Of a DNA stretch of 64,000 bases, positions 14,391 to 16,995 are shown one piece after another (position 1 is the stretch's first letter; each line of letters starts with the position of its first letter). This DNA comes from Desulfosporosinus acidiphilus SJ4. GTDB taxonomy: Bacteria > Bacillota > Desulfitobacteriia > Desulfitobacteriales > Desulfitobacteriaceae. The notes under the pieces were generated by a model. The model did no database searches. It saw only the letters and a program-made list of their open reading frames with translations, and had not been told where the DNA came from. Where the stretch lies: the NCBI RefSeq assembly GCF_000255115.2, contig NC_018068.1, positions 434,001-498,000 of the forward strand, read 5' to 3'. The translations under genes and the position numbers were made by a program.

Positions 14391-14577
14391 AAAAATAATG
14401 ACTATAAAAAATTAAGGGCGGGATTTATAAGATATTGCTTTTTAGTTACCTTACAGACTATTCTGAATAAGGGAATGGAAATAAATTTATATTGGCAGAA
14501 TCATTATTTTGGAGTATATTTTATGAACATTAAGCATATTCAAAAATTCATTCATACTTAATTATTTTGGAGGGCAT

Positions 14578-16995
14578 ATGATTGAAGATAAAGTGTATTG
14601 TCTGGCTAAGATTGAACTTCTTTCAGATCTCTCACCTGCCGAATTAGCCGAGCTTGCTCTGGATTTTCAATGGGAGAGCTTTGAAGCGGGCTCTGAGATT
14701 ATCAAACAGGGGCAAGAAGAACATTCTTTTTATATACTGATCAAAGGAAAAGCGGATGTCATGATCCGAAGGGAAGGACAACGCAAACGGCGGGTTAGAT
14801 CTATTGGCTCCGGGGATTCCTTTGGTGAATTCTCCTTGCTTGACGGCAAGCCTGCTGCCACTACGGTTCTCTGTCAAGAAGAATGTCAAGCTCTTGTTAT
14901 GAATTCTGAAGGTTTTGCGCGAATGCTTTTGCGCTGGCCAAAACTATATCAAAGGTTTATTGGCAGATTGACAAATAATCTGAATGAAGCCAATCTCATC
15001 TTATCGGAGACTAAATACAAAGAGATTTTACGTTCAGCTTTGCAGCTTACCCAATATAAAGAGAAATTTTACGGACTTTGGGGGGGAGCGCGAACAACTG
15101 CCGAGGTTGAACGAAAACTGGAGGAATTCGCTCAGCCTAAAGGGCACCTCATGCTTTTCGGAGAGCGGGGAACCGGTCGTCAGATGATGGCTTGGTATGT
15201 TCATCAACGCCATTCCGGTTCGGAAGCCCCTTTTGTGGTGGTAGAAGGACAACGTTTTGAGCAGCAGTGGATGGACTTAGTTTTGGAGCCGGCCAGTCAA
15301 GAAGACTCTCCCAGTGTTCAGAATGCCAACCTATTCGACATCGCTGAGGGAGGAACGTTGTTTATACGGGCGATAAACCTCATATCACCTCATGCACAGC
15401 TTAAGCTTGCCCGAGCGATAAAGGCACAAAACAACAAATGTTTTGTTATAGGAAGTTCAAACTTAGAACCTGATTCAGAGAAGATAATTATTCCGGAACT
15501 TCAAGAATGCTTTGCTCACACTTATGAGATCCCTCCTCTGAGAAAACACAAACGAGATATTCCTATTTTAGCCCAAGGGTTCTTGGAAAAATTAGCTCAG
15601 AAAAGTCAGCGAAATGTTCCCACTCTAAATCAGGAAGCAATTAAGTTATTACTCTCCCATCATTACCAGCAAGGGAATGTTACAGAACTAATTCAAGTTA
15701 TTGAGAGAGCCTTCTATATTGCGGATCAAGATGTTATTGGCTTAGAACAGATCTTTTTTGGCCCGACGGCAGAACAAAACGGTCATACAATTAACCTTTT
15801 AGCCTGGGGAAAGCTGAACAGTCTTATAAAAAAGGGGACCTTTCTAAATTGGATAAGGCGTGCAGCAGCGTTTCTGTTTATAGCTCTCATAGCATTGTTG
15901 CTTTTCGCACCTCAAGTTGCGGTTTCTACTAAGATTTTCGTCTTAGTATGGGGGTTGTGGTGGCCGGCGCTTGCTCTTGTTTCTCCTTTTTTAGGGCGTT
16001 TGTGGTGCACTGTTTGCCCGTTTTCGACCTTTATGGAGTTCATTCAAAGGAAGGTCCATCTGAACCGTAATCTTCCGGAATTTATCATTAAGTATGATTA
16101 CCTTCTAGTCAGCTTTTTGTTTTTACTGATTTTTTGGCTTGAAGTGATCAGCGACATGCGCTCTCATCCTGTCTACACGGCAATCTTGCTTATAGCGATC
16201 CAACTTTGTGCAATTATTACCGCCGTTCTCTATCCCCGTCATGCTTGGTGTAAACATCTTTGCCCTTTGGGAGGCTTTATTGGAACTGCTTCAATAGGCT
16301 CCATGCTAGAGGTGCGAGCCGATGCCGCAGTTTGCTTGAATAAGTGTACAAGCTTTGAATGTTACGTTGGGAGTGAGAAGGCTTCAGGGTGTCCCATGTC
16401 CCAGCACTTACCATATTTAGATAATAATTTGGGCTGTAAACTTTGCTTTAATTGCGTTCGAAATTGTCCGAACGGGTCAGTTCAAGTTAATTTAAGACTC
16501 GCGGGCCGTGAAGTGTGGCATTTAGTTCGAGTTAATCAGGGATTTGTTGTGTTTATAGGGGTCATGTTGGGAATTTTGATTCCTCTGAATTATTTTGTCA
16601 CGTTCCCGAAACTCTGGTTTTCTTCTTATTGGAAAGTATGGTTTAGTCTATGTTATTGGGGAGCAGGTTTGTTGGGAGGGGCACTTGCTTGGTTGGTTGC
16701 CAAGCCTTTTAAAACAAAAGCGGCTTCACTTCGCGTCAAGCTAATCTTTGCCTTAACTCCGCTTGTTTTGGCCGGGCATATTATGTATCAGGTGTCACTG
16801 ATCCCAGGCATTCGTTCTCTTTTATTTGGGGTGAGTTATGAAACGCAGTCAGGATTACAGTCTTTTTACCTTCCTGTCACTTTTATCACCCATGGCATTG
16901 CTGCCGCCTTTGGTTTAGCCTTAACAGGTATAACCATTGCTCTTGTATTGCTGCATAAGAAAGAAAAGCGAACGGTAACCATTAAAGCTAAATGA
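14578..16995 (+). CDS. Fusion: cyclic-nucleotide-binding domain + degenerate NtrC-type AAA+ domain + membrane polyferredoxin (NapH/NosR-like)
   Basis: The 805 residues fall into three parts. Residues 10-125 form a CNB/CRP-type sensor fold (FEAGSEIIKQGQ, GDSFGEFSLLDGKPAATT). Residues about 165-400 resemble a sigma-54 activator AAA+ domain (PPLRKHKRDIPILA, GNVTEL). There Walker A reads GERGTGRQ, with no lysine; Walker B reads GGTLFIRAI instead of GGTLFLDEI; and the GAFTGA loop is missing. Residues about 425-795 have several membrane helices and cysteine groups: C477xxC480P, C558xxxC562P, C586/C590/C595/C605P, and C620xxC623xxC626xxxC630P. No DNA-binding helix-turn-helix is seen. It is probably a membrane electron carrier gated by a sensor. 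The function is unknown; it stands alone, with AT-rich flanks and nothing recognisable in 16996-17215. Confidence 0.85.
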   Translation: MIEDKVYCLAKIELLSDLSPAELAELALDFQWESFEAGSEIIKQGQEEHSFYILIKGKADVMIRREGQRKRRVRSIGSGDSFGEFSLLDGKPAATTVLCQEECQALVMNSEGFARMLLRWPKLYQRFIGRLTNNLNEANLILSETKYKEILRSALQLTQYKEKFYGLWGGARTTAEVERKLEEFAQPKGHLMLFGERGTGRQMMAWYVHQRHSGSEAPFVVVEGQRFEQQWMDLVLEPASQEDSPSVQNANLFDIAEGGTLFIRAINLISPHAQLKLARAIKAQNNKCFVIGSSNLEPDSEKIIIPELQECFAHTYEIPPLRKHKRDIPILAQGFLEKLAQKSQRNVPTLNQEAIKLLLSHHYQQGNVTELIQVIERAFYIADQDVIGLEQIFFGPTAEQNGHTINLLAWGKLNSLIKKGTFLNWIRRAAAFLFIALIALLLFAPQVAVSTKIFVLVWGLWWPALALVSPFLGRLWCTVCPFSTFMEFIQRKVHLNRNLPEFIIKYDYLLVSFLFLLIFWLEVISDMRSHPVYTAILLIAIQLCAIITAVLYPRHAWCKHLCPLGGFIGTASIGSMLEVRADAAVCLNKCTSFECYVGSEKASGCPMSQHLPYLDNNLGCKLCFNCVRNCPNGSVQVNLRLAGREVWHLVRVNQGFVVFIGVMLGILIPLNYFVTFPKLWFSSYWKVWFSLCYWGAGLLGGALAWLVAKPFKTKAASLRVKLIFALTPLVLAGHIMYQVSLIPGIRSLLFGVSYETQSGLQSFYLPVTFITHGIAAAFGLALTGITIALVLLHKKEKRTVTIKAK

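Follow-up and report, generated by a model that had tools for sequence, protein, structure and literature searches.

A conserved fusion of a degenerate sigma-54-activator AAA+ domain with a NapH-like membrane module in Desulfosporosinus acidiphilus, with a candidate role in electron transfer

The window analysed here, a stretch of 64,000 nucleotides from Desulfosporosinus acidiphilus SJ4, carries an uninterrupted open reading frame at positions 14578–16995 that begins with ATG and runs for 805 codons with zero internal stops; coordinates of this gene and its parts are those of the window, and all of these features lie on the forward (+) strand. A putative ribosome-binding site, GGAGGG, stands at 14569–14574, and most of the 16 orthologues aligned have a similar purine run ahead of their start codon. 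Further upstream is a sigma-A-like promoter, TTGGCA-N17-TATATT (14492–14520), belonging to a pattern (TTG[TG]CA-N17-TATANT) that occurs 76–143 nt upstream of 12 out of 20 Desulfosporosinus orthologues and gave 2 matches in 4000 mononucleotide shuffles. Based on this common pattern, the gene is probably under its own control.

The encoded protein combines a cyclic-nucleotide-binding-like (CNB) domain (residues 33–117, 14674–14928; cNMP_binding PF00027, E = 5.1e-18), a degenerate sigma-54-activator AAA+ core (residues 171–296, 15088–15465; Sigma54_activat PF00158, 9.8e-11), an AAA+ lid (residues 322–393, 15541–15756; AAA_lid_14 PF25601, 3.2e-15), and a NapH-like membrane module (residues 428–791, 15859–16950), with Fer4_5 matches in two stretches (1.5e-9). 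An earlier note, made by a model from the letters alone, had described a single chain of CNB, AAA+, and cysteine-rich membrane domains without a DNA-binding domain; the intact reading frame and the Pfam matches bear out this layout, and the Pfam scan detected no DNA-binding or helix-turn-helix (HTH) family at E ≤ 1. The best 60 of 207 sequence matches in the PDB included PKA regulatory subunits for the CNB part and NtrC-type activators for the AAA+ part, with no convincingly related solved structure for the membrane half (best E 0.13). AlphaFold gave a pLDDT of 38.7 for the full length and, in a second model, of 42.9 for residues 1–400 from 14 close sequences, both too low to be usable. Among the matches listed in literature searches, we found neither a paper describing a protein of this architecture nor a known role on record for any relative.

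The fusion is conserved beyond D. acidiphilus. Within the family, 29 of 45 genomes gave a match that reaches into the N-terminal half (E ≤ 1e-60; 2 of the 29 partial at contig ends); within the order, 34 of 73 did so, 32 of them along most of the protein and 2 at contig ends; and among the sampled Bacillota genomes, at least 14 of 398 did, with the own genome included in each count. The last figure is a lower bound because two candidates were scored per genome; it spans six families, one by a partial copy only, and four genomes of this sample hold two copies. Named relatives are Desulfosporosinus in 13 cases out of 14, the other being designated "Bacillota bacterium" only. The same architecture was recovered by tblastn of plasmids from the cyanobacteria Pseudanabaena galeata and Aulosira laxa, at 23%–24% overall identity, and zero matches were found on the viral contigs searched. 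As the chain is conserved with the same layout in other genomes, from six Bacillota families to two cyanobacterial plasmids, a sequencing or assembly artefact joining two genes, a possibility raised by the earlier note, is ruled out. Residue counts below refer to 46 aligned relatives (44 Bacillota and 2 cyanobacterial), a set that excludes the incomplete relatives L035 and L036 as well as the copy in genome G062 (L116). In genome G005, which has MenG and is without MqnA/D or a MenD match over the cut-off, a relative is broken by one in-frame TAG (locus L088, 9560–9740).

Residues that define a working sigma-54 activator have been lost from the AAA+ part. We compared the relatives with 11 activators from 17 loci, picked by a pattern that covers the P-loop, GAFTGA, and sensor II, for which reason the activators' own Walker A, GAFTGA, and sensor II counts mean little (GAFTGA is present in 10 of the 11 by construction). 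The GAFTGA loop is absent from all 46 relatives, as is the Walker B Asp (0/46 versus 10/11 activators); the arginine-finger positions are occupied in 0/46 (first) and 1/46 (second) relatives, compared with 11/11 and 10/11 activators, and the sensor II Arg persists in one relative. The P-loop glycines, a PLRxRKRDI stretch, and lid residues are retained in most. In the D. acidiphilus protein, Walker A reads GERGTGRQ (15160–15183), with Arg in place of Lys, and Walker B reads GGTLFIRAI (15349–15375), with both acids lost (FIRAI, in which Arg-Ala replaces Asp-Glu). The earlier description of a dead sigma-54 activator thus agrees with the absence of GAFTGA, the Walker B Asp, and the arginine fingers, while its account of the Walker losses holds for this protein and only in part for the family: the second Walker B acid is retained as Glu in 26 of the 46, and the Walker A Lys in 8, with Arg in the other 38. 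The Lys is kept in the two f75 rows, in one of the two copies in each of four f14 genomes, and in the cyanobacterial rows. With neither GAFTGA nor the Walker B Asp in any of the 46, we encountered no relative in which the Walker motifs are intact and a regulatory function is known. Current names can mislead: one cyanobacterial member is annotated as a nitrogen assimilation regulatory protein, and the label on a fragment of another reads sigma 54-interacting transcriptional regulator.

Despite these losses, purifying selection acts on the AAA+ part. Across nine pairs, dN/dS was 0.05–0.24 for the AAA+ part in eight (the ninth being saturated there), 0.06–0.21 for the CNB domain, and 0.07–0.21 for the membrane part; having values as low as its neighbours, the domain is therefore kept for something. 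It may serve as a scaffold, and the Lys-bearing relatives may still bind nucleotide.

Phylogenetic analysis of the AAA+ part (20 of the 44 Bacillota rows, the 2 cyanobacterial rows, and the 11 activators) placed all fusions, cyanobacterial ones included, on one side of a branch with support of 99/97. In a tree of the membrane part, the fusions were set apart from seven stand-alone proteins (support 100/99); in this unrooted tree, the cyanobacterial rows adjoin the stand-alone proteins. These topologies are compatible with a single fusion event, although the long branches mean that they do not prove it. In the AAA+ tree, the 16 rows with Arg in Walker A group together (support 87/98), as a single change from Lys to Arg would produce; the membrane tree in its best form requires two changes, although a single one may also be compatible.

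In the CNB domain, the Glu of the FGE cassette is present in 36 of the 46, and the position following this cassette, which we take from alignment with PKA to be that of the phosphate-binding Arg, holds Arg in none. With this residue missing in 46/46, gating by the usual cyclic nucleotide is unsupported, contrary to the ligand gating suggested by the earlier note insofar as a canonical cyclic nucleotide is meant, and such a nucleotide is an unlikely ligand.

The membrane module is a distant relative of NapH. Two curated NapH models matched it, at E = 3.6e-8 (32.8 of 234 bits) and 8.3e-8 (32.1 of 213.05 bits), both far under their cut-offs, in line with the earlier claim of a NapH-like membrane part. 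Manual placement on the hydropathy profile gave about eight hydrophobic helices, of which numbers 6 and 7 are weak. The module contains a CX2CP motif (residues 477–481, 16006–16020; Cys 477/480), a CX3CP motif (residues 558–563, 16249–16266; Cys 558/562), and two four-cysteine groups, CX3CX4CX9CP and CX2CX2CX3CP (residues 586–630, 16333–16467; Cys 586/590/595/605 and 620/623/626/630), and all twelve cysteines are invariant in the 46 relatives. Compared with the NapH/MauN pattern of two CX3CP motifs and two four-cysteine groups, the first motif and the spacing of the first four-cysteine group are atypical. In all 44 Bacillota members, the loops bearing the twelve cysteines lie on the side richer in Lys and Arg, and the same side is still richer, again in 44/44, when the large cysteine loop is omitted, so that all twelve are predicted to be in cytoplasmic loops. 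The Pfam scan returned no redox domain beyond the Fer4_5 module; specifically, neither an FMN-binding domain nor the FixG C-terminal domain borne by the CcoG cupric reductase was found at E ≤ 1. Given cysteine loops predicted to be cytoplasmic and no further redox domain found, the through-membrane electron conduit envisaged earlier is unsupported, and exchange between quinone and a cytoplasmic carrier is favoured over transfer across the membrane. The membrane segments of NapH have been proposed to oxidise quinol (PMC5928378).

RpoN (sigma-54) was found in 39 of 41 carrier genomes tested, the two others being G006, an 82% complete draft, and G344, a single contig of 98% completeness in which two models detected no RpoN. 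The same two models gave no match in a control genome, Synechococcus elongatus, and cyanobacteria in general are not known to have sigma-54. The fusion protein thus seems to be independent of sigma-54, although most carriers have it. G344 also encodes an NtrC-type response regulator (L132) with a Walker A of GERGTGKE, an HTH-like C-terminus (by eye), and no GAFTGA, which poses the question of whether activators are re-used after sigma-54 loss. In another genome, a second, short RpoN fragment (G014:C1:53341-53478) lies ~7 kb from the full gene. In the sections consulted, a survey of sigma-54 in Clostridiales names activators with Fer4 or hydrogenase parts and none with a membrane NapH half (PMC6615313).

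Gene context gave no fixed partner. Across the 34 Bacillota loci, some of them cut by contig ends, an adjacent gene cluster was common to at most four, all of one genus, and no Pfam family recurred in more than three of 60 flanking genes (of 63 picked, 3 that were stretches at contig ends or close to them were omitted; no flanking gene came from the interrupted locus L088). A conserved operon partner in Bacillota was therefore rejected, since no gene family recurs beside the fusion gene. Families recurring at a distance in unrelated Bacillota loci were ABC-transporter ATPases and a tRNA methyltransferase (by eye). On both cyanobacterial plasmids, cysK follows the fusion gene within 20 bases; DsrE, rhodanese, and glutaredoxin-like genes are nearby on one plasmid, and MerR, ArsP, and Rrf2 on the other (L125, L126).

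Co-occurrence was likewise tested in the order. A link to reductive dehalogenases (RDases), whose co-occurrence the earlier note had proposed checking, was rejected, there being no positive association: the fusion occurs in 3 of the 11 genomes where an RDase scores over the cut-off, versus 31 of 62 others (Fisher p = 0.20), and, at E ≤ 0.001, in 5 of 13 versus 29 of 60. Of the 41 carriers, the 34 most complete were searched for MenD and MqnA/D, and 32 of these had MenD over the cut-off or an MqnA/D match at E ≤ 1e-46. Menaquinone was rejected as a discriminator of carriers since MenG is near-universal in the order (66 of 73 genomes, with or without the fusion gene). One 90% complete draft, G062, has an intact fusion gene, and neither MenD over the cut-off nor MqnA/D or MenG was found in it.

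With moderate confidence, we read the protein as a stand-alone NapH-like electron-transfer protein linking quinone to cytosolic iron-sulfur chemistry, whose former activator half would now serve assembly and control. Most likely, the NapH-like C-terminal half would mediate electron exchange of the quinone pool with a cytoplasmic partner such as ferredoxin, by way of putative iron-sulfur clusters on the cytoplasmic side. The N-terminal half, presumably no longer able to remodel the sigma-54 polymerase, would act as a cytoplasmic assembly and control part, and its CNB domain as an input for a non-canonical ligand or as a structural cap. This reading draws on the NapH homology, the 12/12 invariant cysteines and their predicted cytoplasmic loops, the gene's own promoter pattern, the lack of a recurrent flanking family, and the MenD or MqnA/D matches in 32 of 34 carriers. 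It draws equally on the loss of GAFTGA, the Walker B Asp, and the arginine fingers while the P-loop glycines, PLRxRKRDI, and lid residues persist in most relatives, on the low AAA+ dN/dS, on the absence of an HTH family, and on the presence of the fusion in G344, where RpoN was not found, and on two cyanobacterial plasmids. Against it stand NapH scores of ~32 bits where the cut-offs are 213–234, and the link to quinone is a weak one, with MenG general in the order and G062 keeping an intact gene where MenD, MqnA/D, and MenG were not found.

The main rival, which we rank second and hold only tentatively, is a membrane redox sensor in which the NapH-like module would read the quinone or cytoplasmic redox state and signal through the AAA+ and CNB domains to a soluble partner, for example by mixing into the rings that intact sigma-54 activators form and poisoning them. 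The families from which both N-terminal domains derive are those of signalling proteins, other AAA+ signature residues stay conserved, the lack of a fixed neighbour is as would be seen for a global sensor, sigma-54 is present in 39 of 41 carriers tested, and the own genome has dozens of activator-like matches. However, the fusion also occurs where sigma-54 was not found (G344) or is not known to exist (the cyanobacteria), and BLAST with the 11 activator AAA+ domains against the 34 Bacillota loci found one activator-like gene among the genes retrieved, six genes away. Arginine fingers act between subunits, and their loss from the fusion relatives also counts against the sensor.

An unlikely extension of the electron-transfer reading is that the family is ancient and arose when a membrane ferredoxin:quinone oxidoreductase took over a sigma-54-type AAA+ ring as its cytoplasmic ring: the CNB/AAA+ ring, reading energy state or a ligand, would open or close electron flow between cytoplasmic iron-sulfur carriers and the quinone pool, and the Walker A Arg would be the sign that ATP hydrolysis has given way to a fixed or product-binding state. 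If the electron-transfer reading itself holds, a transcription-activator ATPase has moved from gene control into membrane electron transfer, and selection maintains it even in the absence of a detected sigma-54. The fusion also offers a test case for the assembly or gating of a redox protein by an AAA+ part that is catalytically dead.

That the protein is a cytoplasmic-facing reductase which handles stress by acting on a metal or sulfur species seems quite unlikely. The cysK gene and the sulfur and metal stress genes near the fusion on the cyanobacterial plasmids speak for it, as do stand-alone paralogues of the membrane half, which in 6 of 7 loci come after a small protein rich in Met and His; yet relatives of the cyanobacterial neighbours in the 34 Bacillota loci (one MerR, one cysK-like, one rhodanese) are each single and at least four genes away, and the paralogues, of which four were aligned, are only 25%–29% identical. 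That the gene is decaying, or is a functionless product of a chance join, is extremely improbable, for although AAA+ motifs are lost and the G005 relative is broken by a TAG, the pairs measured contradict it with a dN/dS well below 1 for each domain, and the chain is conserved across families and in a second phylum.

Among known systems, the best curated match is to the NapH/MauN ferredoxin-type quinol dehydrogenase subunits, which the protein resembles in its paired Cys-Pro motifs and two four-cysteine groups, the first of them atypically spaced, and from which it differs in its CX2CP first motif, longer membrane part, and large N-terminal CNB-AAA+ half. Stand-alone NapH-like proteins of 443–458 aa in Bacillota, two of them in the own genome, have all the cysteine groups at 25%–29% identity (four aligned); unlike the fusion, they lack the CNB-AAA+ half, and six of seven follow a small Met/His-rich protein. 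The two in the own genome (L085, 5482–7449; L086, 5367–7352) each come after a Met-rich small protein, the one scanned having a weak YtkA match below the cut-off, and are oriented divergently from an intact NtrC-type activator paired with a kinase; these loci are possibly a copper-linked system. Sigma-54 enhancer-binding proteins (NtrC, NifA, PspF) are homologous in AAA+ core and lid (PF00158 and AAA_lid_14 over cut-off), whereas the fusion is without GAFTGA, the Walker B Asp, arginine fingers, or HTH and has membrane helices. CRP/FNR proteins and PKA regulatory subunits match its CNB domain, which is without the phosphate-binding Arg in a protein without HTH. The NosR and RdhC (PceC) flavo-iron-sulfur proteins have a related membrane module but differ in carrying an FMN-binding domain and in having their accessory half outside, where that of the fusion is predicted to be cytoplasmic. 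RdhC and NosR were first named as regulators and later reassigned to redox roles (PMC5928378).
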